This document shows positions 1,335 to 42,412 of a stretch of DNA of 64,000 nt, in pieces. The notes below the pieces were generated by a model, which saw only the letters and a program-made list of their open reading frames with translations, did no database searches and was not told the DNA's origin. Source of the stretch: an uncultured Pelagibacteraceae bacterium (GTDB taxonomy: Bacteria > Pseudomonadota > Alphaproteobacteria > Pelagibacterales > Pelagibacteraceae); assembly GCA_902623395.1 (NCBI GenBank), contig CACNTN010000002.1:1-64000 (forward strand), in the 5' to 3' direction. How positions within the stretch are numbered: position 1 is the first letter of the stretch; each line of letters starts with the position of its first letter. The position numbers were made by a program, and so were the translations under genes.

Positions 1335-2648
1335 TTAGTTAAGTCTATAAAATCCTTGAAAAGCTTCCTTCAAACTAATTTTCTTTCTTTTTGAATTATT
1401 GATCTCTGAAATCATCTTAAAAACTTTATCTAAAGCTCTTTCGTATTTTTTTAGAATAGTATTATTATGACATATAGAGATCATAACAGAATTACTGGCT
1501 AAAAATCCTAATTTAAGCATTTGATAAGTTAAAAAACTTTTAAAATAGTTATTTTGATTATTATCAAAATTAAAGCTACAAATTGAGTCAATGCCAAAAA
1601 TTTTTATTTTTATTCCATGTTTTTTTGCTATTCTATTCCAAATAAATTTAACTTTCTTCCCTTGATTTTTTACAGTTTCCCAGGTTTTATTTTTTTCCAT
1701 AAATCTTATAGTTTCTAAAGCAGCTGTTGGTCCAGACCTTTCAGACCAAAATGTACTTGAAATAAAAGATTGATCAGCCTTTTTCATAATTCTTTTTTTT
1801 CCAAGAACAGATGTAATCGCATAACCGTTTCCAATCGCTTTACCAAAAATCACCATATCAGGCACAACTTTGAAATGTTTGTGTATTCCACCAAAAGATT
1901 GACGAAAACCAGTAGTGCATTCATCAAAAATTAAAATAGCTTTGTATCTGTTAGCCAACTTCCTGACTTTTTGTAAAAAATTATTTTTAGGTTGGATATT
2001 TCTTATTACTTCCATTTTAATAATCCTAATTTTCTTTACTTTTAAAAGATATTCTAAACGATTAAAATCATTATACTCAAAAGTATATACTGTATTAGTT
2101 AACTCCTTAGGAACACCATCATTTTTCAATCCTTTTAAAAGAAATTTTTTCATTGAATTTTTTTTACTCAGATTTGCAGATAAGTACCAATCATGCCATC
2201 CATGATATCCACATATCGCTATTTTTGATTGTTTTGTGAATGCTCTAGCTATTCTTATAGCAATAGCATTCGCTTCTCCTCCTGACCTAGCAAATTTAAC
2301 TTTTGAAGCCCATGGATGAATAGTTTTTAACTTTCTTGCTAAATATACCTCTTCCGGACAATTTAGTGTTGTCATATTCCCTTTTTTTAAATTTTTAACA
2401 ACAGCATTGTCAATTTTTTTATTAGCGTATCCTAATACATTAGTACCAACGCCCATTAAAGACATATCTATATACTTCTTATTTGTAAGATCCCAAACAA
2501 AACAACCTTTAGCTTTAGAAAAATATGCTGGCCAAAAAATAGGAAGAAAATTCTCAGGTCTTTTTGAAAAAAGACTATTTCCTCCAAGTATTAGCTTTTT
2601 TGCCTCATTCCAAAGAATATTATTTTTATTTTTTTTTATCTTTTCCAT
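1335..2648 (-). CDS. Class III (GSA-like) PLP aminotransferase
   Basis: This 437-residue protein belongs to the glutamate-1-semialdehyde aminomutase/class III aminotransferase fold. Visible features are RSGGEANAIA (about 121-130), the PLP-ring Asp in FDE (241-243) and the Schiff-base lysine K270 in IFGKAIGNG. Lying between a cytidylyltransferase and a NeuB-like gene, it is more likely to aminate a keto-sugar or keto acid than to act in heme synthesis. Members of this family recur in nonulosonate-like clusters. The gene overlaps the upstream cytidylyltransferase gene by 13 bases and abuts the next gene, so it is translationally coupled. Confidence 0.8.
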   Translation of the reverse strand: MEKIKKNKNNILWNEAKKLILGGNSLFSKRPENFLPIFWPAYFSKAKGCFVWDLTNKKYIDMSLMGVGTNVLGYANKKIDNAVVKNLKKGNMTTLNCPEEVYLARKLKTIHPWASKVKFARSGGEANAIAIRIARAFTKQSKIAICGYHGWHDWYLSANLSKKNSMKKFLLKGLKNDGVPKELTNTVYTFEYNDFNRLEYLLKVKKIRIIKMEVIRNIQPKNNFLQKVRKLANRYKAILIFDECTTGFRQSFGGIHKHFKVVPDMVIFGKAIGNGYAITSVLGKKRIMKKADQSFISSTFWSERSGPTAALETIRFMEKNKTWETVKNQGKKVKFIWNRIAKKHGIKIKIFGIDSICSFNFDNNQNNYFKSFLTYQMLKLGFLASNSVMISICHNNTILKKYERALDKVFKMISEINNSKRKKISLKEAFQGFYRLN

Positions 2649-3391
2649 TTGTACATTGAGTTATAACCTTTTGCGCAAAAAGGTTTAATTAATTTTTTTA
2701 AGTGCGGTTTTGAGTTAATAAATTTGATAATATTAGGAAGATCGTAGTATTTATTTTTAAATTTTTTATAAACTTGTTTACACAAAATTAAATCTTCAGG
2801 ATTATCTACAGTTAATCTTATATCAATTCTAAATAATTTCTTTTGTGGAAATATTCTTTTAATTTTAAATTTTTTAATATTCTCTCTCATGAAAAGTGTA
2901 CATAATTCAGACCTATGCTTAGCTTTGCCTAGTACATAGGATTTCTGTAATGCCTTAATATTAATTATTTCATAGCCACAACCATCAATTATATTATCTA
3001 AAAATGTTCCATCAAAATTATTTTTCAAGTGAGTTTTCCAATTTTTATCTAAATCAACTAAATATGGAAAAGGAGATTCTGAAGTTATCCTAAGAATATC
3101 TGTAGCCTTAATTTTTTTAGCACATTTAATTAATCTTGAGAGAACATCTTTATCATTACCTAAAACATAATTAATACGATATTTTTTTGCTATATCAATA
3201 TAATCTTTATTTTCGGGTTTATCCGAGATTGCCAACGCTATCTCATTTACTTCTTTATGTCTTTTTAAGTTTTTAATTAAAAAATCAATGATTTTAACAC
3301 GGCCACGAAGATCTAAATTCTGCAGTGGTTTTGCGTAAAGTCTATTACTTTTGTTTCTACATGCAAGAATAGCTGCCAATTTTCTTTTCAT
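2636..3391 (-). CDS. SpsF/NeuA-like cytidylyltransferase
   Basis: A 251-residue GT-A nucleotidyltransferase of the CMP-sugar synthetase/SpsF group. The N-terminus AAILACRNKSNRLYAKPL keeps the Arg-x-x-Ser-x-Arg-Leu-x-x-Lys-Pro-Leu phosphate-binding signature, and RITSESPFP marks the sugar/metal region. It would activate the 3-deoxy acid made by the neighbouring NeuB-like enzyme as a CMP-sugar. It overlaps the upstream neuB-like gene by 4 bases. The specificity is inferred from neighbours only. Confidence 0.8.
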   Translation of the reverse strand: MKRKLAAILACRNKSNRLYAKPLQNLDLRGRVKIIDFLIKNLKRHKEVNEIALAISDKPENKDYIDIAKKYRINYVLGNDKDVLSRLIKCAKKIKATDILRITSESPFPYLVDLDKNWKTHLKNNFDGTFLDNIIDGCGYEIINIKALQKSYVLGKAKHRSELCTLFMRENIKKFKIKRIFPQKKLFRIDIRLTVDNPEDLILCKQVYKKFKNKYYDLPNIIKFINSKPHLKKLIKPFCAKGYNSMYKWKR

Positions 3392-4401
3392 TTAATGTGA
3401 TCTTTTGTTAAAACTGAATTATTGTGTAAGTCTTTTTTTAAAATTTTATTTTTAATTTCTGACAAGTTTTTAATAGCTTTTTTATTAGGAGATCTAATAA
3501 ATAAAAAATGGTTTTGGTTTAGCTTAGTACCTTTTTTAATAAATTTTTTTGAAATAAAGTTTCTTTCGACATTAAGTCTATATTTTTCTTCTTCTTTACT
3601 TAAATATATCTCTTTTGAATTAAGTTTATCAATATAACCGAACGATTCATCTGCAACTAATAAACTTAATTTGAGTTTTTTAAACTCACTTGGAAAATAA
3701 GCTGACTCATGATCTTCTAATTTTTTGTAGTAGGGAATAGTTAAATGTTTTTCAATATATTTTGCTCCAGCTCCAACTGATAAAACCATAGAAATATTAT
3801 TTTCAGGGGTTTTTGGAAGTGAATGATCTGCAAAACCATAATTTAAATTTTTTATTTTAAATTTATTTTTTAGAAACAAGATTCTAGAAATTTGGTTTGA
3901 GTATATAGGTGTTGGATAAACTTGAAAACCAGTAAGAAAAATTATTTCTTTTTGATTTTTTAAATATTTTACCACAGTTTCAATTTCTTTAAGCTTAGCT
4001 CCACCAATACCTATAAATATCTTTTTAAATTTAAATGAACTAATTGATTTAAATAATTCGTAGTTGTTGATATCTGTTGGATGAATTTTGATTCCATCTG
4101 CATTTATTTTTTTTGCAAATTTTAAACTCTTTTTACCAAACACATCCACATAAAATTTAAGTTTATATTTTTTAGAAAAGTCTCTTATTTCTTTCCATTG
4201 TTTAAAAGTTAATTCTAATTTTTTAAAAATTTTAAAATCTTTATAATCATTAGTACAAATTTCATCTGCAAATACTAATTGAAACTTAACGGCGTCAGCT
4301 TTTCCTTTATATGAACCGACTATTAGCTTTTTTGCTATTTTAACACTTCCCTCAAAGCCCTGTGCTAGCTCTGCTATTAATTCTGTTTTTTCCTTTTTCA
4401 T
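3388..4401 (-). CDS. Divergent NeuB-like synthase (copy 2)
   Basis: This 337-residue protein has the NeuB architecture: a barrel with KADAVKFQ, GFADHS and KYIEKHLT signatures, then a C-terminal SAF-like domain beginning around ERNFISKKFIKKG. The usual N-terminal Asn-His motif is replaced (ELAQGFEGS), so the active-site entrance differs from copies 1 and 3. It may use another acceptor sugar or have lost one activity. It overlaps the cytidylyltransferase gene by 4 bases and follows the aldo/keto reductase gene by 1 base. Confidence 0.75.
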   Translation of the reverse strand: MKKEKTELIAELAQGFEGSVKIAKKLIVGSYKGKADAVKFQLVFADEICTNDYKDFKIFKKLELTFKQWKEIRDFSKKYKLKFYVDVFGKKSLKFAKKINADGIKIHPTDINNYELFKSISSFKFKKIFIGIGGAKLKEIETVVKYLKNQKEIIFLTGFQVYPTPIYSNQISRILFLKNKFKIKNLNYGFADHSLPKTPENNISMVLSVGAGAKYIEKHLTIPYYKKLEDHESAYFPSEFKKLKLSLLVADESFGYIDKLNSKEIYLSKEEEKYRLNVERNFISKKFIKKGTKLNQNHFLFIRSPNKKAIKNLSEIKNKILKKDLHNNSVLTKDHIK

Positions 4402-4402
4402 A

Positions 4403-5272
4403 TTATTTTTTCCACAAACTTGGGTTTACTAATTTTACATCATTTATTGGTTTAATTTTATTTAAAATTTTAATCTTGGGTTTATTTATACTTTGGAAAA
4501 AACTTGAAATTTCTTTTTCAAATTTAAAACCTATAATTATTTTATCAATGAATTTATTCTTATTAACATAGTTAAAACAAATATTGTAAATTGTTTTTTG
4601 ATTTTTATCTTTTTTAAAATGATAAAGTTTTTTTTTCCATTTTTTAAAATAACTAGGTAAATTTTTTACATCTTTAAAAAATAGACCTTGTAAGAAAATT
4701 GATCTGGCATGAATTTCAATTTTTAATTGTTTTAACTTTTTAAGGCTTCCATTAATCTCAAATCTGTTATCAAAAATATTAAATGGGAGTTGGATGATAT
4801 CAGGTTTGTAAGGTCTAAAATTTTTTAAAATTAAATTTATTTCGTTAGGATTGTAAATAGAAACTCCAATTTTTTTTATAATTTTTTGCTTTTTATAATC
4901 AATCAAAATTTTGATAGCTTCTTTTATTTTTTTAAGATGAAAGTCCTTGCTATCATGAAATAATAAACAAAATATGTTATCTGATTTTAATAAAAATAGA
5001 TTTTTATAAATTTGTTTTTTTATAAATTTTTTTAAATTTTTGTTTGGAACTTTCTTAATTGATGGAAGTTTTGATATAACATCGAATCTTGCTTTAGAAA
5101 TTAAATTCAATGTTTTTTTGTTATTTATATATTTTGGGGCAAAGTCTATGGTTTTAATTTTTTTCTTCTTAGCAAAAGCTAAAACTTTTTTAGTGTCTTT
5201 TATTAAATTTTTATTTATTAAACCGTAATTTTTATTAAAGTTTGCAGTTCCTAAAATTATTTTGTTATACAT
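4403..5272 (-). CDS. Aldo/keto reductase-like protein
   Basis: A 289-residue TIM-barrel oxidoreductase. The tetrad typical of the superfamily can be traced as Asp and Tyr in IDFAPKY, Lys in ISKLP and His in LLFHDS. The C-terminal phosphate-binding part ends in IIIGFKFEKEI, where NADPH-binding residues are expected. AKR proteins of this kind occur in SpsE/SpsF-type sugar clusters, and a role in reducing a keto-sugar intermediate fits the place. The sequence is very lysine-rich and divergent, so the reaction is not predicted. Confidence 0.75.
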   Translation of the reverse strand: MYNKIILGTANFNKNYGLINKNLIKDTKKVLAFAKKKKIKTIDFAPKYINNKKTLNLISKARFDVISKLPSIKKVPNKNLKKFIKKQIYKNLFLLKSDNIFCLLFHDSKDFHLKKIKEAIKILIDYKKQKIIKKIGVSIYNPNEINLILKNFRPYKPDIIQLPFNIFDNRFEINGSLKKLKQLKIEIHARSIFLQGLFFKDVKNLPSYFKKWKKKLYHFKKDKNQKTIYNICFNYVNKNKFIDKIIIGFKFEKEISSFFQSINKPKIKILNKIKPINDVKLVNPSLWKK

Positions 5273-5991: not shown

Positions 5992-7242
5992 TCATTTAGC
6001 TAAATTCAAAAACTTCTCTGAAAATTTCCATTGTTTTGACATATTGATTGGTCCAAGGAAAAAGTTGTAAAATGTTTTATCTTTTATTTTTTTTAATTTT
6101 TTGATTACTTCGTTTCGAAATAAGTTAATAAATTTTATATCTGGGTAAAAAACTTTTCTGGTAATTTTTGAATCTAGTATTTTTATATCTCTTTTTTTTA
6201 TCAAAGGGTTTATTTTTTTTAATTCATTAAAAAAGTTATTTTTAAGATTTATATTTTTTAAATCATTTGGATTAGAGAGTATTAATTCTGCTTGTAACAA
6301 CTGATCTTTGCTTTTCACAAAATTATTTGTGTTTGTAATTCTTCCTAGAGCCGGAAATTTAGAGGAACAAAAAATAATTTCTGTAAATTCTTTAGTTTTG
6401 TATTTTTTTGGAAGTTTTATTAGCACGTTTGCAAGAAATTTGTAATTTTTAGTGATTTCTTTCTTAAGTTTGTTATTAGCTAAAAAAAAGGGCGGAAGAC
6501 AGATAAAGACTTGTCCGGCATTTAAGAAATTTTTATTTGTCGTTTTTAATTTTTTATTTTCTGAAAAAATTCCTGTATTTAAAGCTAATTTTATATTTTT
6601 TCTTTTTTTAAAAAAATTATTAAAATCTTTTCTTAAACTTTCAACTCTACCTGATGATGTAATGGCAAAAGAGGGTATTACTTTTCCTGATCTAACTTTA
6701 TTTCTAAAAATCTCACCTTCATCATTAGAATCAAATACATATTCTTTAGGAAAAAACCACGGTATGAAAAAATGTGCTACATTTTTAAATTCTGTATTAT
6801 ATCTTTTAGCTACTTTAAGAATAATCTTTTTAAAATTAGGTGAAACACTTTTAAAAAAGTGATCATAAAATTTAGTTTTTAATTTTTCTTTTTTATAAAA
6901 CTTTTTTAATTCTTGTGGGTAATTTTTTAAAGACTGATGTTCGGCTATATAATGTTTTTGAATAATCTGTTTTCTTATATTTGGAAAAAATTTAATCTTT
7001 ACTTTAATTTTATTTTTTAAAAAATTTACTAATTCTTTTGCACGAGGTAATTCAATAGAGTGAAATCCATTATTTAATTGATATTTTTGTAATTTAACAC
7101 TTTCAAAAGATTGCAATATTTTTGAACCAGCATCATATATCACTATTTTTTTTTCAGGAAATTTGATTGAGAGCTTTGCTGCGGTTAAGCATCCATATAA
7201 GTTTGCACCAATCACCGCTATTAAATTTTTATTTCCATTCAT
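5992..7242 (-). CDS. FAD/NAD-binding oxidoreductase
   Basis: This 416-residue protein begins with a Rossmann dinucleotide site, IAVIGANLYGCLTAAKL (about 8-24), followed by an acidic strand end (IVIYDAG) as in FAD-dependent amine oxidase-like enzymes. It overlaps the radical SAM gene by 14 bases, a coupling that suggests the two act in one step or on consecutive intermediates. No membrane segment or signal peptide is evident. The substrate is unknown. A related oxidoreductase might oxidise a sugar hydroxyl or amine before NeuB-type condensation. Confidence 0.65.
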   Translation of the reverse strand: MNGNKNLIAVIGANLYGCLTAAKLSIKFPEKKIVIYDAGSKILQSFESVKLQKYQLNNGFHSIELPRAKELVNFLKNKIKVKIKFFPNIRKQIIQKHYIAEHQSLKNYPQELKKFYKKEKLKTKFYDHFFKSVSPNFKKIILKVAKRYNTEFKNVAHFFIPWFFPKEYVFDSNDEGEIFRNKVRSGKVIPSFAITSSGRVESLRKDFNNFFKKRKNIKLALNTGIFSENKKLKTTNKNFLNAGQVFICLPPFFLANNKLKKEITKNYKFLANVLIKLPKKYKTKEFTEIIFCSSKFPALGRITNTNNFVKSKDQLLQAELILSNPNDLKNINLKNNFFNELKKINPLIKKRDIKILDSKITRKVFYPDIKFINLFRNEVIKKLKKIKDKTFYNFFLGPINMSKQWKFSEKFLNLAK

Positions 7243-8563
7243 AAATATTTTGATACGTACAATTTTTACAAATAGCTAATTTTTCAGCTTCATTAGAGAT
7301 TTGTTTTTTTCTTACTTCGTCTATTTCTTCGCCAAACCAAATTTGTTTTAGATCTTGAACATTTTTATCTAAATTAGGGTTAAAATTATCCGGCATCTTA
7401 GCTTGACTCATTAATTCAAAACCTTTTTTCTTATCCTTAATTCTGTCAAATACTTGCTTATAATCTTTAATATTTTTAAAACCTTTAGCATCCGCGTAAC
7501 CTACTGGATGTTTCGCGCCCCAATCCATACAACACATTGCAACTTTTCCCTCATATGTAACCATTAATCTTTGGTAAGGCTGTTCACAAGGTAGTCGTTT
7601 TTTTGAAACTTTAATTTCTCCATCGATACTTCTTGAGTAAGGAGTGTTAGAAGGTAAATTGAATTTTTTTAATTTTTCATTATAAATTTTTTTTTCTTTT
7701 TCAGTAAGTTTGTCAAAATCACCACCTCTTTCAGTATAAGAAATGACACTAACGTCATCAACGATAGGATTAAACATCTTAAAGAAACTATCTACTTCAT
7801 TTACAGTTTCATGAGTAATTATCATCTGAATTTTTGTATAAGGAAATTTTGAATTTAATTTTTGTTTAACTTCCTTAAATTTTTTTATGTTTGAATAAAC
7901 AGCTTCAAATTTATTCTTTTTAAATCTACCAGGTCTCATTTTTTCATAGGTTTTTTTCGTTCCACCATCGAAAGAGTAGATTATATAGTCGAGACCAGAA
8001 TTAATTAGTTCTTTCGATTTTTCCTCAGTAAGATGAGTGGCATTAGTATTTATTATAGTATCTATTATTCCCCTTTTTTTTGCATAATCTATGAATTTAG
8101 AAATTTTTGGGTGGAGTAAAGGCTCTCCTCTCCAATTAAATTTTATACTTGGTACTCCCATTTCAGATGCTTGATCAATTAGTTTAAAACAAAATTTTTC
8201 ATCTATTATTTTATCGGGTGTAACTATAGCTTCTCTAAAACAGAAAGGACAAGCAAGATCGCAAAAAGCAGAAACTTCAATATCAATAGACAAGGGAGTG
8301 ATATTTTTTTTTTTAAGATCGTTAGATAATAGTTTTTTTTCAACACATCCATTAGGCTGATCAATCCAATTATCTCTATAATCTTTAAATTTAGAGAGAA
8401 AATAATCTATTTTTTTTTGCTTATTATAATTATACGCTTTATTGTATTTCATATTATTTTTCATGTATGAAATTCTATCAATAAAGTTTTCATTTTTTCT
8501 TAAGATAGTTGAATTTTTTAGTGCTTGATTTACTTCTTTAATTAATTTTTTTTCTTTACTCAT
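7229..8563 (-). CDS. Radical SAM/SPASM enzyme (copy 1)
   Basis: A 444-residue protein with the [4Fe-4S]-SAM motif C101-x3-C105-x2-C108 (CDLACPFC) and a C-terminal SPASM region with CCMDWG and a closing CKNC pair, which would hold auxiliary clusters. Family members catalyse radical oxidations, epimerisations or eliminations on sugars, peptides and other substrates. Its place, overlapping pseB by one base and the FAD oxidoreductase by 14, argues for action on a UDP-GlcNAc-derived sugar. A run of eleven T (plus strand) lies at 8304-8314. The exact reaction is unknown. Confidence 0.8.
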   Translation of the reverse strand: MSKEKKLIKEVNQALKNSTILRKNENFIDRISYMKNNMKYNKAYNYNKQKKIDYFLSKFKDYRDNWIDQPNGCVEKKLLSNDLKKKNITPLSIDIEVSAFCDLACPFCFREAIVTPDKIIDEKFCFKLIDQASEMGVPSIKFNWRGEPLLHPKISKFIDYAKKRGIIDTIINTNATHLTEEKSKELINSGLDYIIYSFDGGTKKTYEKMRPGRFKKNKFEAVYSNIKKFKEVKQKLNSKFPYTKIQMIITHETVNEVDSFFKMFNPIVDDVSVISYTERGGDFDKLTEKEKKIYNEKLKKFNLPSNTPYSRSIDGEIKVSKKRLPCEQPYQRLMVTYEGKVAMCCMDWGAKHPVGYADAKGFKNIKDYKQVFDRIKDKKKGFELMSQAKMPDNFNPNLDKNVQDLKQIWFGEEIDEVRKKQISNEAEKLAICKNCTYQNIYEWK

Positions 8564-9570
8564 TAAATATTTCCAAGATTCTTAATTTGAGAAATGGTTA
8601 AAAAATCTTTATTATTTTCTGAAGAATACTCAAACCCTTCTTTAACTCTTGTACCTATTTCACCAGATTGATCTTTATATTTATAATTATTAGTTTTTGG
8701 ATTTTTATAAATAACGTAATGTTTTTTAAATTCAAAAGTTTGCAGACATGTTTCCTTAGGCGCCATAATTTCATGTATTTTTTCTCCTGGTCTAATTCCG
8801 ATTATTTTAAATGGTTTTTTAGAGTCCATTGCTTTCGCAAGGTCAACAATTCTAGTAGATGGTAACTTTGGTATGAAAATTTCGGATCCTTCCATGATCT
8901 TCATCATTCTTAAAACGAAATTTACACCTTGATCTAAGGTTATCCAAAATCTTGTCATATCCTTGTGAGTGATAGGAAAAAATTTTTTGTTATTCGATAC
9001 AATATCTCTAAAAAGAGGCACAACAGATCCTCTTGAACCAATTACATTGCCGTATCTCACAACTGAAAAAATAGTTTTTTTTCTATTACCTAAATTAAAA
9101 CCAGTTATATTATTTGCTGATGTAAAGATTTTATCTGACACTAGTTTTGTTGAGCCATATAAATTAATTGGATTTGCTGCTTTATCGGTTGAAAGTGCAA
9201 TAACTTTTTGAACCTTATTTTCAATTGCAGCTGCAACTACATTTTCAGCACCATGCACGTTTGTTTTGATAAATTCCATAGGATTATATTCTGCAGCTGG
9301 AACTTGTTTAAGAGCAGCGGCATGAATAACAAAATCTATGTCTCTTAATGCTTGATTTAACCTTGTTCCGTCTCTTACATCGCCTAAAATATATCTTAAG
9401 CAAGGGTATTTTTTTTCATCAAATTTTTCTTGCATTTGATATTGTTTAAATTCATCTCTAGAAAAAATTATAAGTTTACTTGGCTTAAATTTGTTTAGAA
9501 CTATTTCTACAAATTTTTTTCCAAAAGAACCTGTGCCACCAGTTATAAGTATATTTTTTTTATTAAACAT
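8563..9570 (-). CDS. pseB: UDP-GlcNAc 4,6-dehydratase, PseB type
   Basis: A short-chain dehydrogenase-type 4,6-dehydratase of 335 residues, the usual PseB length. Visible features are the NAD site TGGTGSFG (10-17), the Ser-Thr-Asp-Lys catalytic group (about 127-130) and Tyr138-x3-Lys142 in LYGSTK. It would convert UDP-GlcNAc to a 4-keto-6-deoxy (5-inverted) sugar, the first step to pseudaminic acid. It heads the minus-strand sugar operon. Its predicted promoter (9577-9605) holds the island palindrome, and the start ATG lies at or within one base of the predicted transcription start. Confidence 0.88.
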   Translation of the reverse strand: MFNKKNILITGGTGSFGKKFVEIVLNKFKPSKLIIFSRDEFKQYQMQEKFDEKKYPCLRYILGDVRDGTRLNQALRDIDFVIHAAALKQVPAAEYNPMEFIKTNVHGAENVVAAAIENKVQKVIALSTDKAANPINLYGSTKLVSDKIFTSANNITGFNLGNRKKTIFSVVRYGNVIGSRGSVVPLFRDIVSNNKKFFPITHKDMTRFWITLDQGVNFVLRMMKIMEGSEIFIPKLPSTRIVDLAKAMDSKKPFKIIGIRPGEKIHEIMAPKETCLQTFEFKKHYVIYKNPKTNNYKYKDQSGEIGTRVKEGFEYSSENNKDFLTISQIKNLGNI

Positions 9571-9632: not shown

Positions 9633-10622
9633 TTATTTCAATAAATCTAATATTTTACCTTTCGCCTTACTTTTTAAATGCAATTCTCCAAGATGACAGA
9701 CAACGCTCCCCTCTATATTTAACCTAGTTTTGTAAAGGATAACTTTTTTTTCTTTATTTTTGAATTTATACTTAGTGTGCGTACAAAGTAATGGTTCATT
9801 AGTTTTATCTTTTGTTAACCATAAATGCATTTTTTCCAAAAATTTAAGTTTGTTTATTTTAACTGAGACTTTTAACTCTTCATGCACTGGTAGCACTCCT
9901 GCTAATGACAAGATAGAATGATATGGCCCAGTCATTTTTTTATCTTCGTGGCTTTTTAAACTTAAATAAAAAGACTCCACTAAATTATTTGGTAAAATAT
10001 TGTAGGCTATAAAGCTAGCACCAGTAAGACCAAACAAACCTTTACAAGAGCTATAAGCAAGAACATCTGAATAGTGATGATCTTTTTCTAAGCCGATCGA
10101 AGCTGTAGCATCTAAAGCAAGTTTTGCTTTAGTTCTTTTCTTTAATTTATACAAATCTAAGATAGGAACTTTAAGCCCCATACTTGTTTCAGTCGGACAT
10201 CCAATTATCCAATCAAATTTTTCAGAAACTTCAGAAATATTTTCCCAAGAAATAGATTTAATATTTTTGATATTTTTAAAATTCTTTTTTGACTGACCAC
10301 AAAGTAATTTCAATCTATCTGAATAGTAGCCTGTTGAAATTACAAGAACTTTTCCGAATAAAAAATTGTTTATTAAAATTTCTAAAGCAAGACTAGCTGA
10401 GCCTTGTAATCGAATAATATTTTTATGACCGGACATAATTTTTAATCTTCTTAAAACTTGATTTTCTAATTTTTCATAACTTTGATCGTTCCTACCAAAG
10501 CAAGATTGTTGGTGAATTAAATTTTCAGCCGTTAAACTACCTGGTCCAGGAGTAAATAAATATTTTTCCCTATTTTTTTTGGTAATAAAATCTTTAAAAA
10601 TTTTTGTATTTTCTTTTTTCAT
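9633..10622 (-). CDS. AEP:pyruvate-type aminotransferase (PhnW-like)
   Basis: A class V PLP aminotransferase of 329 residues, somewhat shorter than typical PhnW. It shows the family opening FTPGPGSLT (about 23-31), QGSASLALE (about 73-81), the Asp-Ala pair in ALDATASIG and the Schiff-base lysine K194 in SSCKGLFG. Together with the phosphonopyruvate decarboxylase and PEP mutase upstream it completes the classic three-step route to 2-aminoethylphosphonate, here running in the biosynthetic direction. It starts 4 bases after the decarboxylase gene. Confidence 0.82.
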   Translation of the reverse strand: MKKENTKIFKDFITKKNREKYLFTPGPGSLTAENLIHQQSCFGRNDQSYEKLENQVLRRLKIMSGHKNIIRLQGSASLALEILINNFLFGKVLVISTGYYSDRLKLLCGQSKKNFKNIKNIKSISWENISEVSEKFDWIIGCPTETSMGLKVPILDLYKLKKRTKAKLALDATASIGLEKDHHYSDVLAYSSCKGLFGLTGASFIAYNILPNNLVESFYLSLKSHEDKKMTGPYHSILSLAGVLPVHEELKVSVKINKLKFLEKMHLWLTKDKTNEPLLCTHTKYKFKNKEKKVILYKTRLNIEGSVVCHLGELHLKSKAKGKILDLLK

Positions 10623-10626
10623 AAAT

Positions 10627-11736
10627 TTAAATAATTTTCATAAATTGATTTCTGTTGAATATAGGTTTTTCATTAGGTCTAACCAAATTATTTCTATGTC
10701 CGGCACCACAAATAATTTCAATAAAAGAGTTATTTCTTGACTTAAGTGACTTTTTGATAAAGTTTTTTAATTCTTTTAAGTTTCTCACCTTGTAAACATT
10801 TTGATAACCAATTGATCTGGCTATATTACAAAAATTCAAATTTTCTCCTGCTGTTAATTGTCCACCGACTGAATCATGTGAGTTATTGTTGAATATTATA
10901 TGAATAAGGTTCCTACATCTAGCGGCAGTAATTAAAGACCCCAAATGCATTATTGCAGATCCATCGCCATCCAGACACAAAACCTTTTTTTTTGACTTCT
11001 TAGCTAATCCAACTGCAATTGACGATGCGTGTCCCATTCCTCCAATGCACATAAATGTATTATTAGAGTTTTTATTTATTTTATCAAGTTCATAAAGTTC
11101 TCTTGATAACATGCCGGTAGTTGATATTTTCTGTAAATTTTTTGGTAAATATTTATATAATTCTTTTAAAAAAAACTCTCTGGTCTTTTTATTTGATTTA
11201 GTTTTTGAAGAATTTTCTGCGAATGTATTTTTGCGAATTAAAATTGCAACTGGTTGAGATTTTTTTAAAGCCAAGTTTTTTGCCCTTTTAATTGTCATGT
11301 TTATATTGGATGTATTATTAATTTTAATATGATCGATACCAAGAAGATTTAATTGATCAATTGTAATCTTTCCTTGATAAAAATGTTGTGGTTCATCTTT
11401 GATATGTTTATTCCCCTTCATCTCACCTCGCCAGCCTATAAAAAGCAACATTGGTATTTTGTAAACATTTTTGTTAACTAAGGAGACCAATGGATTTATA
11501 GCATTACCGATACCTGAATTTTGGAAATATACTAAAGGTATCTTTTTAGTAGCTAAATAATATCCAATTGCTAATCCTATCGCCGTACCCTCATTCGCGG
11601 CAGAGATATGTTCGTTTTTACTGATTTGTCTTTCAAAAGCAAAACATACACTTTTAAAAACAGAGTCAGGAACACCAGTGATAAAATTAATTTGATTTTT
11701 TTTCAGAACTTGAATTAGTTTTTTAGGAATTATCAT
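10627..11736 (-). CDS. Phosphonopyruvate decarboxylase
   Basis: A ThDP-dependent decarboxylase of 369 residues, the usual size for phosphonopyruvate decarboxylase. The catalytic-type Glu lies in AANEGTAIG (about 46-54). The ThDP/Mg motif is GDGS (257-260) followed by NNNSHDSVGG (283-292). GVPDS near residue 21 and GWRGE near 101 are also typical. It removes CO2 from phosphonopyruvate to give phosphonoacetaldehyde, which makes the unfavourable PEP mutase step go forward. It overlaps the mutase gene by one base. Confidence 0.9.
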   Translation of the reverse strand: MIIPKKLIQVLKKNQINFITGVPDSVFKSVCFAFERQISKNEHISAANEGTAIGLAIGYYLATKKIPLVYFQNSGIGNAINPLVSLVNKNVYKIPMLLFIGWRGEMKGNKHIKDEPQHFYQGKITIDQLNLLGIDHIKINNTSNINMTIKRAKNLALKKSQPVAILIRKNTFAENSSKTKSNKKTREFFLKELYKYLPKNLQKISTTGMLSRELYELDKINKNSNNTFMCIGGMGHASSIAVGLAKKSKKKVLCLDGDGSAIMHLGSLITAARCRNLIHIIFNNNSHDSVGGQLTAGENLNFCNIARSIGYQNVYKVRNLKELKNFIKKSLKSRNNSFIEIICGAGHRNNLVRPNEKPIFNRNQFMKII

Positions 11737-13043
11737 TAAATTGTACCAGGTATTAGTTTTAATATTTCTTTAATACTAATTATTTTTTTTTCTTGCTCAA
11801 AAGATCTTTGATGCCTCAATATCCCTTGAGCAACATCTAGCATCGATGGATAGCTAGCTCTTAAAAGTTGATTAGCGTATATTATAATATTGAAACCATT
11901 ATCAACAAATTGTGATTCTTTTACTTTATTAAAAGTTGAAGGAACCACAACTAATGGAACATTAATTTTAATTTTTTTCCTAAATTTTTTTGCAAAATCG
12001 AATATTTGCTTTGCATTATTTTCTTTACTATGAATCATGATACCACTAGCCCCAGCATCTAAATATGAGAAAGCTCTTTTTAAAGCATCTCCTACACCTT
12101 TATTTAAGACCAAACTCTCAACTCTTGCAAAAAGCATTACATCATTAGTTTTGCATGCTTTATTCCCTATCATTATTTTTCTACAGAAATTTTTAATACT
12201 GTCTTGTTCTTGTTTTACACTCGTTCCTAATAATGAATTTTTTTTGAGACCTTTTTTATCTTCAATAATAACAGCTGAAACACCAATACGTTCAACTGAT
12301 TTCATATTAATCTCAAAGTGTTCAATCTTACCGCCTGTATCTGCGTCCATAATTAAAGGTTTTGTAGTAACATCGAAAATATCATTTATGTTTTGTAGTC
12401 TTTGATTAATATCCAATACTTCAATATCAGGCTTACCTTTAAGGGTAGAATCAGTTAGTGAACTCGACCAAAAACCGTCAAATTCTCTAATTACACCATT
12501 TTTCTCATGTTTAGCATTTTCAGCTACTAGCGCAGATAGTGGGCTATGAGCCTCAATAAATCTACAAATTGGTTTTACAGTTAACAACCTTTTTAGCATG
12601 TTTCTTCGACTTAACGGTGTATTTGTTTTCTTTAAAATTTTATTTTTTATTTCAGAAATAGAAATATTTTTTGTGTATGGAGTTTCTATAAGTTTTCCAC
12701 CATATCTTTTTACTGCGTTAATGACACTTTTTCTAAGTTTTTTATCCGAAAATTTCCAATCGTCGCCATGTATCACATAATCTGGTTTAATTTTAATTAT
12801 ATTAACTGCATCATCCCATTCATTTTGAGGTATAACTTTTTTTACTCCATTAATATTTTGTAAGATTTTTTTCCTTTGCTCCCAGTTTAACAATGGTAAA
12901 CTTTTGTTTTCCATTATTGCCTGGTCTGTTAATAATCCAATAATTAAGTTTCCAAATTTTTGAGCTTTTTGAATTAAATTTATATGGCCGTGGTGAATCA
13001 TTTCACCTGATAAGGTAAGATAAACTGTTTTATTTTTTCTCAT
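11736..13043 (-). CDS. pepM: PEP mutase with N-terminal cytidylyltransferase-like domain
   Basis: A 435-residue fusion. Residues about 150-435 are phosphoenolpyruvate mutase: MDADTGG (232-238) supplies metal-binding Asp residues, and EDKKGLKKNS (261-270) matches the EDK-x5-NS signature that separates PepM from isocitrate-lyase relatives. It converts PEP to phosphonopyruvate, the entry to nearly all C-P bonds. Residues about 1-135 form a glycerol-3-phosphate-cytidylyltransferase-like domain with HHGH (17-20). Its later motif reads YTKNISISEIK rather than RTxGISS-x-IR, so that domain may be structural. It abuts the next small cytidylyltransferase gene. Confidence 0.92.
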   Translation of the reverse strand: MRKNKTVYLTLSGEMIHHGHINLIQKAQKFGNLIIGLLTDQAIMENKSLPLLNWEQRKKILQNINGVKKVIPQNEWDDAVNIIKIKPDYVIHGDDWKFSDKKLRKSVINAVKRYGGKLIETPYTKNISISEIKNKILKKTNTPLSRRNMLKRLLTVKPICRFIEAHSPLSALVAENAKHEKNGVIREFDGFWSSSLTDSTLKGKPDIEVLDINQRLQNINDIFDVTTKPLIMDADTGGKIEHFEINMKSVERIGVSAVIIEDKKGLKKNSLLGTSVKQEQDSIKNFCRKIMIGNKACKTNDVMLFARVESLVLNKGVGDALKRAFSYLDAGASGIMIHSKENNAKQIFDFAKKFRKKIKINVPLVVVPSTFNKVKESQFVDNGFNIIIYANQLLRASYPSMLDVAQGILRHQRSFEQEKKIISIKEILKLIPGTI

Positions 13044-13430
13044 TTAATATTCCCTATTCTTTATTAGTTTTCTTATTTTGCTGCTACTAATTCCTTTGGT
13101 TCTTGCAAAAATAATTGTTTTTATGGAAAATTTTTCTTTTTTATAATCACTTCCCCTAATAAAAATATCAAATTTATTCTTTTTGAGATAATCATTATCT
13201 ACCTTATAATTGCAAGGAATAACTTTCTTTACATATTTAATTGATTGAAGTATCTCTTTCCGAAATTTAAAATTTAATTCAGGTATATATCCTTTATGTT
13301 TTTTTATTTCTTTATCAGTAGTTAATCCAACAATTACTTTCCCAAATTTACTTGCCTTTTTTAATAGTCTAATATGACCATGGTGAATCAAGGTACATGA
13401 AAGATCTACAAATACTTTATTATTTTTCAT
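13044..13430 (-). CDS. Small GCT-type cytidylyltransferase
   Basis: A 128-residue stand-alone nucleotidyltransferase of the glycerol-3-phosphate/ethanolamine-phosphate cytidylyltransferase fold, full length for that family. Both signature motifs are present: HHGH (17-20) and RTKGISSSKIR near the C-terminus. It is clearly related to the N-terminal domain of the adjacent PEP mutase, indicating tandem duplication or a split. By context the likely substrate is 2-aminoethylphosphonate, giving CMP-AEP, but phosphoethanolamine or glycerol-3-phosphate cannot be excluded. It shares one base with the ABC transporter gene upstream. Confidence 0.8.
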   Translation of the reverse strand: MKNNKVFVDLSCTLIHHGHIRLLKKASKFGKVIVGLTTDKEIKKHKGYIPELNFKFRKEILQSIKYVKKVIPCNYKVDNDYLKKNKFDIFIRGSDYKKEKFSIKTIIFARTKGISSSKIRKLIKNREY

Positions 13431-15166
13431 TATACTTCTTTATCCAATTTTTTCTCTTTCAACGTTTTATTCTCTAAGCTGAAAATTTTATCAACGTATC
13501 TTAAAGTATTTTTGCTGTGAGTTATTACTATAATAGTTTTTTTTCCTTTAAATTTATTGATTCTTTCCACAATTGTATTTTCTGTATTTTCATCTAATGC
13601 ACTTGTTGCTTCATCTAAAATAATTATATCTTTAGAGTGATAAAAAGATCTAGCTAAGGCTAATCTCTGCTCCTGACCGCCTGATAATCTTATTCCATTT
13701 TCACCGATTAAAGTATCGTAACCTTCTTTAAGTGATTGCACGAAACCATTTAAATCAGCATTATTAATAGACTCATTTAATTTTTTATAATCGATTTTTG
13801 ACTTTTCATTTTCTAAACTAATATTTTCAACAATCGATCTCTCTAAAATAGAAGGATTTTGAGTTAAATAAGCTGTAAAATTATATTTTGATTTTATTAT
13901 CTCTTTACCATTAATCTTTACAGCTCCACCAGTAGGTTTTATTAGACCTAGCAAAATATCTATTAGTGTAGTTTTACCAGAACCTGACGGCCCAATGATA
14001 CCTATACAATCATTAGACTTAATTAATAAATTTAAATTTCTTAAAACAAACTTATCTGAGGCAGGATATTTAAAACTAATATCTTTAAGTTCTAAACTTT
14101 GAAAATTAGTTTGTTTTTGATCATTTAAATTTTTTTCTTGAAGTTGTTTTAAACTATGAATATCTGAAAAAATTATTTCAACAGAAGGTTTAAAAAATCC
14201 AAGATTTAGCATATTAGAAGCAATACTATTTGCTGTGGGCATTAGTCTTAATCCAGCAACAGCAAAAACACTTAAAGTAGCCAAGTATTTTTCTGTTTCC
14301 GTGTTTGAATATATATTTATTAATAAATAACTAACAATAAAAATTATAAGTCCTATTTCAAGAAGGTGTTTTGGCATCGATGAAAATAAAGTATTTTTAG
14401 TTTTATTTTTAAAAACTTCATGAGCAGATTTTCTTAAATTTTTTAAAAAGAAATCCTGTTTTTTAATTACTTTAATTTCTTTAAAACCATTAATAGTTTC
14501 AGAAATATTTTTATAAATATTTTTGACTGCTTGATTAGCATTTTGACCATACTTAATACTTAACGGTCGAAATAATAAAATCGATAAAGTATAAATAGAG
14601 AGTATAACAAGAAACAATATTATTAAACTTGAATAATCAACAGTAAATAAGTAAATTAATATAATTATTAGTACAATTAAATCAGAAATTGTTAGTAGAG
14701 TTTTTTCTAAAGCATCTATACATGCTTTGCAAAGTTCATTTATATTTCTGATGTAAACAGTTTTTTGCCTTTTAATGAACTCCAAATAATCCATGTTTTG
14801 ATAAAGCGATGTAATCTTTGTTTGTAATATTGCAAATTGCTTGTATGCAAATCTTGTAATTAACCATTTTGTAATAATTGATATAATATTTTTAATTATG
14901 AACATTGCTACTAAACCAAATGAAAGAAAATAAAGATATTTGTTGTAACTAAATTCTCCAATATATGGGTTTAAATAGGTTGTTAAACTTACTATTAATG
15001 GACTTTCAGGGTTAGTAATTATAACGATAATTGGAGCTACTAAACCTAAACTAACTATATCTATTACACCAGAAATCAAAAAAAGAATTATTAATGGGAG
15101 AGTATTAATAAATCTTTTATCTACTATTAATAATATCTTTTTGAATATATCTATAAAAAAAAACAT
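13430..15166 (-). CDS. ABC transporter, fused membrane and ATPase domains
   Basis: A half-transporter of about 578 residues like MsbA/PglK flippases. Six membrane segments occupy roughly the first 310 residues. The ATPase part carries Walker A (GPSGSGKTT), the signature IRLSGGQEQR and Walker B (IIILDEATSALDE). The ATG at 15166-15164 is preferred to an upstream TTG at 15193 because the TTG lies inside the palindrome and upstream of the TATAAT box at 15179-15174. Heading the phosphonate operon, it probably flips or exports the decorated lipid-linked product. Confidence 0.85.
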   Translation of the reverse strand: MFFFIDIFKKILLIVDKRFINTLPLIILFLISGVIDIVSLGLVAPIIVIITNPESPLIVSLTTYLNPYIGEFSYNKYLYFLSFGLVAMFIIKNIISIITKWLITRFAYKQFAILQTKITSLYQNMDYLEFIKRQKTVYIRNINELCKACIDALEKTLLTISDLIVLIIILIYLFTVDYSSLIILFLVILSIYTLSILLFRPLSIKYGQNANQAVKNIYKNISETINGFKEIKVIKKQDFFLKNLRKSAHEVFKNKTKNTLFSSMPKHLLEIGLIIFIVSYLLINIYSNTETEKYLATLSVFAVAGLRLMPTANSIASNMLNLGFFKPSVEIIFSDIHSLKQLQEKNLNDQKQTNFQSLELKDISFKYPASDKFVLRNLNLLIKSNDCIGIIGPSGSGKTTLIDILLGLIKPTGGAVKINGKEIIKSKYNFTAYLTQNPSILERSIVENISLENEKSKIDYKKLNESINNADLNGFVQSLKEGYDTLIGENGIRLSGGQEQRLALARSFYHSKDIIILDEATSALDENTENTIVERINKFKGKKTIIVITHSKNTLRYVDKIFSLENKTLKEKKLDKEV

Positions 15167-15173
15167 TGCATAT

Positions 15174-15204
15174 ATTATACTGAAAATGTTCAATTTTTGA
15201 ACAA
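15174..15204 (-). promoter_or_regulatory. Flippase/phosphonate operon promoter with operator
   Basis: On the minus strand TATAAT (15179-15174) lies 7 bases before the ATG. A weak -35 (TTGTTC, 15204-15199) is 19 bases upstream. The perfect palindrome TGTTCAATTTTTGAACA occupies 15187-15203 and covers the -35 area. The short distance to ATG implies leaderless translation. Confidence 0.65.
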
Positions 15205-15258: not shown

Positions 15259-15555
15259 ATGAAAAATGAGCATTTTGAAATACTAAGAAAACTTAACAAA
15301 GACTCCTCATTATCGCAGCGGGAGCTAGCAAAAAAACTCGGTCTAAGTTTAGGAAAAGTGAACTATTGTTTAATAGCTTTAAAAGAGAAGGGTTTAATAA
15401 AAATTAACAATTTCAAAAATAAAAAAAACAAGTCAAGTTACCTTTACATACTTACTCCTAAAGGTATAGCTGAAAAAACCAAAATTACCTTAAGGTTCAT
15501 GAAACAAAAAATGCATGAATATGACGAACTTCAAAAAGAGCTTAAGAAAAAATAA
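15259..15555 (+). CDS. EPS-associated MarR-type winged-helix regulator
   Basis: A 98-residue protein with one winged-helix DNA-binding domain. Helix-turn-helix SQRELAKKLGLSLGKVNYCL lies at about 19-38, followed by a wing rich in Lys and Asn (about 52-60) and a C-terminal helix likely to dimerise. The length and layout match the EPS-associated MarR family (TIGR04176 in my memory), found in exopolysaccharide loci. It sits at the divergence point of the island and its own promoter holds the palindrome, so it is the best candidate for binding TGTTCAANNNTTGAACA sites. No ligand-binding domain is visible. Confidence 0.85.
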   Translation: MKNEHFEILRKLNKDSSLSQRELAKKLGLSLGKVNYCLIALKEKGLIKINNFKNKKNKSSYLYILTPKGIAEKTKITLRFMKQKMHEYDELQKELKKK

Positions 15556-15565
15556 TTTTCTTTAA

Positions 15566-16315
15566 ATGCAAAATAATTTTAATAGTTTATTTAAACAGGT
15601 AGTAAAAAGATCTTATGGTCTCTATCATTACAAACATGAAGCAATAACTATTTATTTAATGGCGGTTGTTTCATTTTTAGTCACACCTTTTTTTATTCTC
15701 TTAAAATTTTCTGCTAACTTAGTTACCGTTATTAATTTTTTCGTAGCGACCATATCTTTATTTTTAATATTTTCACTTAATTCAAATTTATATATCTTAG
15801 GAATACTTTTTTATTATATTAATAGAATTTTGGATTTCTGTGACGGAAACATCGCTAGGTTTAATAAGAAGTCAACTTTTTATGGAAGATTTTTAGATGC
15901 TATAGTTGATATTTTTTTTGAGTCTCTTTTACTATTTTCCATTCATTATTATTGTTATAAAATTTATTCTAATGAACTGTTATTTATTTTTGGATCAATA
16001 AGTTCCTTTTTTTGTGTTTATGGATCTTGTATAGCAGATAAATATTCTTCACTTGCTAGATGGAGCAATGATATCAATAAAAAAAAAATTAAGCCTTATT
16101 TAAGAAAAAGTATAAACCCAAGAATAAATTTTATTTTTTACGATTTTTATTATTTATGCTTAGTCTCAACACCTTTTTTTGTACATGATAAAAATAAATT
16201 TATGATAGCTGTTCTACTTCTTACAATTTCAACATTTATTTTTAATATTATAAATATCGCTATTCATATTATTTATGCAAAAAAAAACTTGAACAAATTT
16301 GCTGGAGATAAATAA
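15566..16315 (+). CDS. CDP-alcohol phosphotransferase family protein
   Basis: A 249-residue integral membrane enzyme with about six hydrophobic segments. The complete family signature D-x2-DG-x2-AR-x8-G-x3-D-x3-D is present at Asp90, Asp93-Gly94, Ala97-Arg98, Gly107, Asp111 and Asp115. These enzymes transfer a phospho-alcohol (or phosphonate) from a CDP/CMP carrier to a hydroxyl acceptor. Ten bases after the regulator gene and across the divergent promoter from the phosphonate operon, it is the obvious candidate to move CMP-activated aminoethylphosphonate to a lipid or glycan. An inositol- or glycerol-phosphate role remains possible. Confidence 0.85.
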   Translation: MQNNFNSLFKQVVKRSYGLYHYKHEAITIYLMAVVSFLVTPFFILLKFSANLVTVINFFVATISLFLIFSLNSNLYILGILFYYINRILDFCDGNIARFNKKSTFYGRFLDAIVDIFFESLLLFSIHYYCYKIYSNELLFIFGSISSFFCVYGSCIADKYSSLARWSNDINKKKIKPYLRKSINPRINFIFYDFYYLCLVSTPFFVHDKNKFMIAVLLLTISTFIFNIINIAIHIIYAKKNLNKFAGDK

Positions 16316-19853: not shown

Positions 19854-20852
19854 ATGAATAAAGTAAAAATTATTGCTGAAGCGGGTGTAAACCATAACGG
19901 CTCTTTAAGAACAGCATTAAGATTGGTCAAAGAAGCAAAAAAATCAAATGCTGATTATGTAAAATTTCAAATATTTAAAGCTGAAAATGTTGTTACTAAA
20001 AAAGCGAGTAAATCAAATTATCAAAAAAGACATCCCAAAGATAAAGAAACGCAATATCAGATGATAAAAAAATTTGAATTACCTTATGATAATTTTAGAA
20101 TAATAAAAAAAGAATGTTCAAAACATAAAATTAAATTTTTATGTTCACCATTTGATACAGATAGTCTGAAATATTTAAAAAAATTACGCGAAAAAATTGT
20201 AAAAATACCATCGGGTGAAATAACTAATTATCCGCTAATAAGAGATATTGGAAAGATGAATATTAAAGTAATAATGTCTACTGGAATGAGTAACTTTAAA
20301 GAAATAAAGGATTCAATAAAAATACTCACTAGAAACGGTACAAAGAAAAAAAATATAACTCTACTGCACTGTAATACAGCTTACCCAACTCCACCAGCAG
20401 ATGTAAATTTATCTGCATTACAGAAAATAAAAAATTTTTTTGGTGTTGAGGTAGGTTATTCCGATCACACACTAGGTGTAGAAATACCTGTAGCCGCTAT
20501 TTGTTTTGGGGCAAAGATTATAGAAAAGCACATTACCCTTAATAAAAACTTACCGGGACCAGATCACAAAAGTAGTCTCAACCCTGCAGAATTTGCAACA
20601 ATGGTAAACTCAATTAGAAATACTGAAAAAGCATTATCTATATTTAAAAAATCAATTAGACCAAGTGAAAAACCAAATCTTAAAGTAGTGAGAAAATCTA
20701 TTGTTGCAAAAAAAAAAATTTTAAAAGGTGAATTTTTAAATGAGTCAAATTTAACTACAAAAAGGCCTGGAATAGGAATAAATCCAATGATGTGGAAAAA
20801 AATAATTGGAAAAAAAGCAAAGAAAAATTATTTAAAAGATGAATTCATTTAA
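19854..20852 (+). CDS. neuB: N-acetylneuraminate/legionaminate synthase (NeuB, copy 3)
   Basis: A 332-residue canonical NeuB: GVNHNG (11-16), KFQIFKAE (37-44), CSPFD (97-101), LHCNTAYPTP (171-180), YSDHT (202-206), EKHITLN (224-230), GPDH (235-238) and a C-terminal SAF domain from about residue 275. It condenses PEP with ManNAc or a 2,4-diacetamido-hexose to sialic or legionaminic acid. The neighbouring neuC and legC/ptmE-like genes favour the legionaminic route. It overlaps neuC by 14 bases. Confidence 0.9.
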   Translation: MNKVKIIAEAGVNHNGSLRTALRLVKEAKKSNADYVKFQIFKAENVVTKKASKSNYQKRHPKDKETQYQMIKKFELPYDNFRIIKKECSKHKIKFLCSPFDTDSLKYLKKLREKIVKIPSGEITNYPLIRDIGKMNIKVIMSTGMSNFKEIKDSIKILTRNGTKKKNITLLHCNTAYPTPPADVNLSALQKIKNFFGVEVGYSDHTLGVEIPVAAICFGAKIIEKHITLNKNLPGPDHKSSLNPAEFATMVNSIRNTEKALSIFKKSIRPSEKPNLKVVRKSIVAKKKILKGEFLNESNLTTKRPGIGINPMMWKKIIGKKAKKNYLKDEFI

Positions 20853-22840: not shown

Positions 22841-23457
22841 AGAAACAAAAAGTCGGTATAATAAATTTAGGAATTAATAATTTACACAGCATTAAAGAGG
22901 CTTGTAACTCATTAGGATATAAAACAAGTTTAATAAATTTAAATCAAAAAAAATATAATTTTGATATCATAATTTTACCAGGAATTGGATCGTTCAAAAA
23001 AGCTATGCAGATAGTAAAAAAAAGCAACATTAAAAATGAGATACTTGATCATATTAATAAAAAAAACAAATTACTGATTGGAATTTGTCTAGGAATGCAA
23101 ATGTTCTTTTCAAATAGTGATGAATTTGGTTACACAAAGGGACTTAACTTAATAAAAGGGAGTGTTAAAAAATTTGATAAAGAAAAATTAATTACTCCTC
23201 ATACAGGTTGGAATTCAATTAAAATTTTAAAAAAGAATAATTTTATTAAAACTAAAGAACATAAAAACTCATTTTATTTCACCCACTCTTTTTATTGCAA
23301 GCCTGAAAGTAAAGAATTTATGATAGGAGAAACAAATTATTCAAATTTCAAATTTTGTTCAATTGTAAAAAAAGACAATATTATAGGTATGCAGTTTCAC
23401 CCTGAAAAAAGTGGAAGCAGAGGACTAGAAATTTTAGATAATTTAAGAAAAATTTGA
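22837..23457 (+). CDS. hisH: HisH-like glutamine amidotransferase
   Basis: A 206-residue class I glutaminase. The triad is intact: Cys in IGICLGMQ, and His and Glu in MQFHPEKS. The oxyanion region ILPGIGSFKKAM is as in HisH. It hydrolyses glutamine and feeds ammonia through the HisF-like barrel to the next gene product. It overlaps both neighbours by 4 bases. The sugar context, not histidine synthesis, sets its role. Confidence 0.87.
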   Translation: MKKQKVGIINLGINNLHSIKEACNSLGYKTSLINLNQKKYNFDIIILPGIGSFKKAMQIVKKSNIKNEILDHINKKNKLLIGICLGMQMFFSNSDEFGYTKGLNLIKGSVKKFDKEKLITPHTGWNSIKILKKNNFIKTKEHKNSFYFTHSFYCKPESKEFMIGETNYSNFKFCSIVKKDNIIGMQFHPEKSGSRGLEILDNLRKI

Positions 23458-28800: not shown

Positions 28801-28804
28801 ACAA

Positions 28805-42294: not shown

Positions 42295-42412
42295 TGCCTG
42301 GTAATTATTGCGAAGGGGCCACACCCGATCCCATTCCGAACTCGGAAGTTAAGTCCTTCAGCGCCGATGGTACTTTGTCTTAAGATATGGAAGAGTAGGA
42401 CGTTGCCAGGCT
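42295..42412 (+). rRNA. rrf: 5S ribosomal RNA
   Basis: About 118 bases. Terminal helix GCCTGG (42296-42301) pairs with CCAGGC (42406-42411). The conserved core CCCGATCCCATTCCGAACTC and AAGTTAAG is present, as is the GCGCCGATGGTA segment. It stands alone: the preceding 42 kb is an accessory island, not 23S. It is followed 8 bases later by rpmJ, so both may share a transcript. Confidence 0.93.

Follow-up and report, generated by a model that had tools for sequence, protein, structure and literature searches.

The phosphonate cassette and its enzymes

The stretch of DNA analysed here, called the window throughout, comprises 64,000 nucleotides from an uncultured Pelagibacteraceae bacterium (contig CACNTN010000002.1 of assembly GCA_902623395.1; C2:1-64000). 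It belongs to a draft genome of 1.03 Mb in 24 contigs that is ~90% complete, and the contig begins at window base 1. Between positions 9633 and 13430 lies a phosphonate cassette of four open reading frames (ORFs), all on the minus strand and, by rising position, AT, Ppd, PepM and CyT2, with spacings of 4, -1 and 0 nt. An earlier note, made from the sequence alone, had described contiguous, co-directional genes for a complete 2-aminoethylphosphonate (AEP) pathway at these positions, and the gene arrangement was confirmed.

PepM (435 aa, 11736..13043, minus strand) is a bifunctional cytidylyltransferase-phosphoenolpyruvate (PEP) mutase. Its mutase domain (residues 151-408, 11820..12593, minus strand) aligns with solved PEP mutases, and the protein scores 378.2 bits against TIGR02320 (cut-off 319.55) and carries EDKKGLKKNS (residues 261-270, 12234..12263, minus strand), bearing out the PEP mutase with an EDK-x5-NS signature that had been read from the sequence. 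Fused to it is an N-terminal, Fom1-like cytidylyltransferase domain (residues 15-134, 12642..13001, minus strand), which scores 49 bits against PF01467 (cut-off 21) and has the motif HHGH. The nearest solved relative of this domain, 5x3d (E 5e-34), is deposited as phosphoenolpyruvate phosphomutase, and we take it to be the cytidylyltransferase domain of Fom1. Ppd (369 aa, 10627..11736, minus strand) proved to be the phosphonopyruvate decarboxylase it had been called, with 409.4 bits against TIGR03297 (cut-off 312.5), as against 100 and 94.4 bits with sulfopyruvate decarboxylase models.

CyT2 (128 aa, 13044..13430, minus strand) is a stand-alone PF01467 cytidylyltransferase with the motifs HHGH and RTKGISSS, and is proposed to be a CTP:AEP cytidylyltransferase. 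PF01467 was its sole match at E 0.001, with no PF12804 (PntC-type, MobA-like) domain. The cytidylyltransferase listed in the earlier note is therefore present, and a second such domain, the one fused to PepM, had been overlooked. The best whole-sequence match of CyT2 in the PDB was ethanolamine-phosphate cytidylyltransferase (3elb), a top rank that sums two repeats; per domain, glycerol-phosphate cytidylyltransferases score higher. HxGH was kept in 61/61 CyT2 domains and RTxx[IV]SS in 59/61.

AT (329 aa, 9633..10622, minus strand, with catalytic Lys194 at 10041-10043) is, by profile and modelled fold, a divergent class V pyridoxal phosphate (PLP) aminotransferase. The AEP transaminase (AEPT) model TIGR03301 was its best family-model match, with a best E of 9e-19 among 7 members. 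A structure model built on a 53-sequence alignment (pLDDT 95.7, pTM 0.92) was used as a Foldseek query, and AEP transaminases ranked first (7e7g, E 8.8e-19, then the PntC-AEPT fusion 6pd2, E 3.8e-18). Lys194 and Asp171 align with the canonical AEPT lysine and aspartate, and both are invariant in the 53 sequences. The description of this gene as an AEP-type transaminase thus stands as to its class, but AT lies below every curated cut-off, including that of Pfam Aminotran_5 (14.3 bits against 21.5). We propose that AT works like an AEP transaminase but falls outside TIGR03301 membership. The window's genome held no TIGR03301 match at E 1e-10 besides AT. A phage origin or spread of AT was also considered and rejected, with no match in phages and none confirmed in viral contigs.

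Aminotransferase and dehydrogenase at the branch point

To place the cassette among its relatives we sampled 297 genomes from the taxonomic family to which the window belongs. PepM exceeded its cut-off in 36 of these (38 hits); 255 match at E 0.001, the remainder staying below the cut-off. DNA was fetched around the 37 PepM hits outside the window and around one sub-threshold hit. Three loci in which PepM is gapped at the fused-domain motifs (L067 and L068, over the cut-off, and the sub-threshold L069) were dropped from the cluster and tree counts. Among the 36 clusters with a cytidylyltransferase-fused PepM, window included, the branch gene found nearest by, up to 6 genes away, was an iron alcohol dehydrogenase (Fe-ADH) in 24, AT in seven and neither in five, of which three (L034, L044 and L050) run off contig ends. 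The dehydrogenase was identified as an iron alcohol dehydrogenase by Pfam in three representatives of the 24. One genome, that of L041, has both AT and Fe-ADH, and two pepM genes.

Homologues of enzymes that consume 2-hydroxyethylphosphonate (HEP) followed the same division. HEP dioxygenase (HEPD) homologues were seen in L051, L056, L059 and L060 (the last with E 8.1e-76 to PhpD), and methylphosphonate synthase (MpnS) homologues in L052 (E 1.5e-108) with a relative in L051; these five fetched loci are all ADH-type, and no protein of either type was found in the AT loci searched. In agreement with the earlier note, which had seen no methylphosphonate synthase here, the ORFs of the window include no homologue of MpnS or HEPD; the search for these did not extend to the remainder of the genome. 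The window likewise has no Fe-ADH of the pepM kind, the one sub-threshold PF00465 match in its genome not being of that kind, and the methylphosphonate-type set of Fe-ADH with an MpnS/HEPD-type oxygenase is absent from it. Separately, we observed that the PepM fusions of L051, L056 and L059, which are loci with HEP dioxygenase homologues, have lost the third cytidylyltransferase motif, and that those of L060 (HEPD) and L052 (MpnS) keep it.

A quickly built tree of PepM (81 rows: 49 AT, 24 ADH, 8 neither), with 29/78 inner branches weakly supported, required at least three changes between the AT and ADH states. The labels were clustered on the tree (0/500 shuffles, with 'neither' as a third state), to which near-copies add. 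Given the nearest-gene counts, the distribution of the oxygenases and the PepM tree, AT and ADH seem to replace one another at the phosphonoacetaldehyde step of cassettes that are otherwise related. Across the same 297 genomes the canonical AEPT cut-off (TIGR03301) was exceeded in one, and the AT proteins scored ~57-72 bits.

The spread of AT was followed by an AT-alignment scan of one genome per species (84,980 species), with patterns made from AT alone and seed members that were pepM-linked. By record titles, this gave 70 loci in seven phyla: 33 in Pelagibacteraceae, 13 in Methylophilaceae, and the rest in other Pseudomonadota and in six phyla with a single record each (Cyanobacteriota, Balneolota, Omnitrophota, Kiritimatiellota, Chloroflexota and Spirochaetota), most of these being metagenome bins. 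Locus counts use 67 of the 70, as the AT ORF of L080, L090 and L121 was lost to overlap pruning. PepM was present in 55 (including the divergent proteins of L128 and L130), Ppd in 52, often directly adjoining AT, CyT2 in 58 and Fe-ADH in four. CyT2 and AT are fused into one protein in L116, L128, L129, L130 and L135, and in the spirochaete locus L131 Ppd, CyT2 and AT form a single fusion. The PepM-like proteins that adjoin the CyT2-AT fusions at L128:8387-9613, L130:8392-9624 and L135:8335-9621 have ESKRFPKVNS in place of EDKxxxxxNS, no N-terminal cytidylyltransferase and an extra C-terminal region; that of L128 scores 86.3 bits against the cut-off of 319.55.

Transferases of the TagF-like, LicD or CDP-OH (CDP-donor) kinds lie within 6 genes of AT in 28/67 loci, TagF-like neighbours accounting for 21/67 and LicD for 3/67. 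In Methylophilus methylotrophus (L089), which carries the same cassette, the next two genes encode a methyltransferase and then a TagF-like PF04464 transferase. As side observations, a PhyH oxygenase occurs near AT in the SAR11 loci L032, L033, L036, L039 and L041 and in 13/67 AT loci, and the best NCBIfam match of one representative was methylphosphonate hydroxylase, below cut-off; a B12 radical SAM protein related to P-methyltransferases occurs near AT in 9/67. These two proteins possibly carry out further tailoring of AEP.

Island setting of the cassette

The earlier description of the DNA as a SAR11-like surface island held up. The genes beside the 5S rRNA are 87-96% identical to those of a same-genus Pelagibacteraceae single-cell genome (G058). 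The 5S rRNA (42297..42411, plus strand) and tRNA-Val (at 42157, right of the sugar genes) bound the hypervariable island on its right, and glycan and nonulosonic-acid genes lie to the left. The same 5S and tRNA edge was found at five further pepM loci, which were chosen for carrying the window's right-hand flank genes; two are AT-type (L033, L036) and three ADH-type (L037, L040, L051). No 5S or tRNA was found in ~20 kb around pepM in L035 and L041. Because this edge recurs at the window and the five other pepM loci, we place the cassette in the site that we take to be hypervariable region 2 (HVR2), which presumably lies between 23S and 5S.

The cassette is surrounded by three NeuB genes, two CMP-sugar synthetases, PseB, a MarR regulator of the exopolysaccharide (EPS) type and a CDP-alcohol phosphotransferase. 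PseB, a UDP-GlcNAc 4,6-dehydratase that gives a surface sugar context (8563..9570, minus strand; TIGR03589, 485.3 bits against 407.75), adjoins AT. On the other side, an ATP-binding cassette (ABC) exporter (13430..15193, minus strand), PglK/MsbA-like and scoring under the equivalog cut-offs, shares 1 nt with CyT2 and is possibly the flippase of a decorated carrier. Beyond it lie the EPS-associated MarR-family regulator (15259..15555, plus strand; TIGR04176, 132.8 bits against 88) and the CDP-alcohol phosphotransferase (15566..16315, plus strand; PF01066, 41.4 bits against 22), with the motif DGNIAR-x8-G-x3-D-x3-D as read from the translation. This last enzyme is an unproven candidate for the transferase that would use CMP-AEP. 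Home-made profiles for LicD-like and TagF-like transferases gave no match in the window, and 5992-7242, tried as a possible transferase, was set aside for want of a useful match. Together, the EPS-type MarR, the CDP-alcohol transferase, the ABC exporter and the sugar genes suggest that the product may be displayed at the cell surface.

The sugar genes show further features. With three synthases of the NeuB type and a pair of CMP-sugar synthetases (window 270-5272 and 19854-29515), this one island may serve two or three distinct nonulosonic acids. Within the island are also His_biosynth and GATase homologues (22001-23457), a pair that presumably resembles amidinated nonulosonic acid clusters, and a 3-dehydroquinate synthase-like protein (33142-34254).

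Proposed pathway, alternatives and meaning

Taken together, these data suggest that the cassette probably produces AEP rather than hydroxyethyl- or methylphosphonate and turns it into CMP-AEP, the activated form destined for a glycan or lipid of the cell surface. In this scheme PepM would convert PEP to phosphonopyruvate and Ppd would decarboxylate this to phosphonoacetaldehyde, both being enzymes that score over their thresholds. AT would then aminate the aldehyde to AEP, as suggested by its fold, its catalytic residues, its exchange with ADH and its fusions, at the point where the Fe-ADH of the 24/36 sampled cassettes would presumably give HEP by reduction. CMP-AEP would be formed by a PF01467 cytidylyltransferase, which from its fusions and motif is most likely CyT2, with a putative division of roles between this enzyme and the domain fused to PepM, and a CDP-donor transferase would pass AEP from CMP-AEP onto a surface glycan or lipid. 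The complete AEP pathway claimed for the locus is in this way supported in part, by the AT/Fe-ADH exchange and the fusions with CyT2 and Ppd, AT itself remaining under the AEPT cut-off.

Several observations weigh against this scheme. Against TIGR03301, AT scores 68.1 bits where the cut-off is 360.8, and its profile match to solved AEPTs spans ~positions 17-247 alone. In VIA-align the top structure was an aspartate aminotransferase (Z 32.5), with AEPTs (31.5, 31.3 and 30.8) close behind, interspersed with further class V enzymes. As scores are so similar for several members of the class, the fold leaves the substrate of AT unsettled, and fold comparison was rejected as a means of deciding it. 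The Fe-ADH, in three representatives, scores ~121-125 bits against the 423.7 cut-off of the phosphonate-specific TIGR03405, and one contig of L085 (G057) carries AT and an ADH-type pepM cluster ~36 kb apart. Within the DNA fetched, 15/67 AT loci are without Ppd, 12/67 without PepM and 9/67 without CyT2. Five of the 12 lacking a counted PepM are in genomes with an over-cut-off PepM elsewhere, and L135 has the divergent PepM beside AT; in the genomes of L087, L110, L113, L127, L136 and L139 no PepM was found, either over the cut-off or divergent beside AT. Three of these six genomes are of 0.6-0.7 Mb, with completeness not given, and AT stands at the contig start in L113, L136 and L139. Finally, two cytidylyltransferases are kept in one cassette without explanation, and the third motif of the window's fused PepM domain is the unusual YTKNISIS, the other 35 aligned rows having mostly TK(N/G)[IV]SS. 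Degeneration of the fused domain was considered as the reason for CyT2 and is not supported, as the [IV]SS triplet is missing in just the window and L041, 2/8 of the aligned fused domains that are AT-type or CyT2-bearing.

The position of AT under the AEPT cut-off also leaves room for a different order of steps, in which AT would aminate phosphonopyruvate to phosphonoalanine before decarboxylation, the product being phosphonoalanine or a derivative; the transaminase PalB interconverts the two compounds in catabolism, according to the parts of PMC10574752 used here. We consider this unlikely: Ppd is present in 52/67 AT loci, often adjoining AT, and is fused to CyT2-AT in L131; AT replaces an Fe-ADH whose expected substrate is the aldehyde; and the nearest solved relatives of AT are AEP transaminases. 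Still more improbable is a catabolic or relic cassette that makes no phosphonate. The same parts of PMC10574752 have AEP transaminases serving catabolism too, and the genome is a draft, 90% complete, but the PepM signature is intact, PepM and Ppd score over their thresholds, the cassette recurs across phyla and no PhnJ was found in the window's genome (PhnX and PhnZ not having been searched). Published producer genomes, moreover, are nearly all without consumption genes (PMC8931226).

A further alternative concerns the acceptor alone and is compatible with AEP as the product. As the window's transferase candidate is a CDP-alcohol phosphotransferase (15566-16315), a phosphonolipid is a live alternative, in which that enzyme would place AEP in a lipid by a Kennedy-pathway-like route rather than onto a glycan. 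This full-motif CDP-OH transferase adjoins the operon, related ones occur near other AT loci, and CyT2 has the ethanolamine-phosphate enzyme as its top whole-sequence match. The TagF-like (21/67) and LicD (3/67) neighbours elsewhere indicate glycans, however, the 3elb rank falls behind glycerol-phosphate cytidylyltransferases once the two repeats are taken per domain, and the MarR regulator belongs to an EPS family; we therefore regard the lipid as possible, and as the less favoured of the two acceptors.

The cassette resembles systems described from SAR11 and from other bacteria, with differences at the aminotransferase and the cytidylyltransferase. In the parts of Acker et al. (2022, PMC8931226) examined, pepM is found in 18% of SAR11 single cells, is horizontally exchanged and has glycan genes nearby, and phosphonylated glycoproteins are proposed. 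A SAR11 pepM beside glycan genes is thus known already, and the window resembles the SAR11 and Prochlorococcus islands of that paper in its SAR11 pepM, its place in the flexible genome beside glycan-assembly genes and the proposed surface display. There pepM was scored and ppd, pdh and mpnS recorded, 'transaminase' and 'cytidyl' are absent from the main text, and the main-text parts examined do not describe an AT/ADH split, whereas the window is aminotransferase-type. Rice et al. (2019, PMC6697681) show fusion to a nucleotidyltransferase for ~60% of PepM enzymes and synthesis of CMP-AEP by the PF12804 enzyme PntC, and the Treponema denticola Pnt pathway runs from PepM to AEP and CMP-AEP for surface tailoring, as proposed for the window. 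Its Tde1415 is a cytidylyltransferase-AEPT fusion to which the CyT2-AT fusions are comparable, although PntC is PF12804 with a near-classical AEPT, and CyT2 is PF01467 with AT from a distant family. The same source describes the Fom1 fusion, Fom1 acting on HEP in fosfomycin synthesis. In PepM the fused cytidylyltransferase precedes the PEP mutase, as it does in Fom1 of Streptomyces wedmorensis; unlike that system, in which HEP is the substrate, the window cassette adds a second cytidylyltransferase. AT itself shares the class V PLP fold and the catalytic Lys and Asp with PhnW/AepZ (TIGR03301), and differs from them in length (329 aa against a 355-position model), in a C-terminal third that the profile leaves unaligned and in score (68 against 360.8 bits).

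Three things are new as far as our searches show: the AT family, the way it pairs and fuses with a cytidylyltransferase of PF01467, and the exchange between AT and ADH by which SAR11 cassettes fall into an AEP type and a HEP type. No description of the AT/CyT2 module was found in titles and abstracts of open-licence PMC papers, which is hence no proof that it is unpublished. We lean towards the view that AT and CyT2 together are a second module for making and activating AEP, one that differs from PntC-AEPT and occurs in seven phyla, and that in SAR11 the exchange of one enzyme at the aldehyde would switch a surface-island cassette between HEP/methylphosphonate, which are methane precursors, and AEP. 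Surveys with canonical phnW/AEPT would then miss such producers, the AEP branch being invisible to the curated AEPT model. Few cells in the ocean are as abundant as those of SAR11, and the phosphorus and methane cycles are supplied by marine phosphonates (PMC8931226). What becomes of that phosphorus depends on which product a cell makes, HEP/methylphosphonate (a source of methane) or AEP, and the AT/ADH exchange would, if true, be a one-gene sequence marker for that choice.

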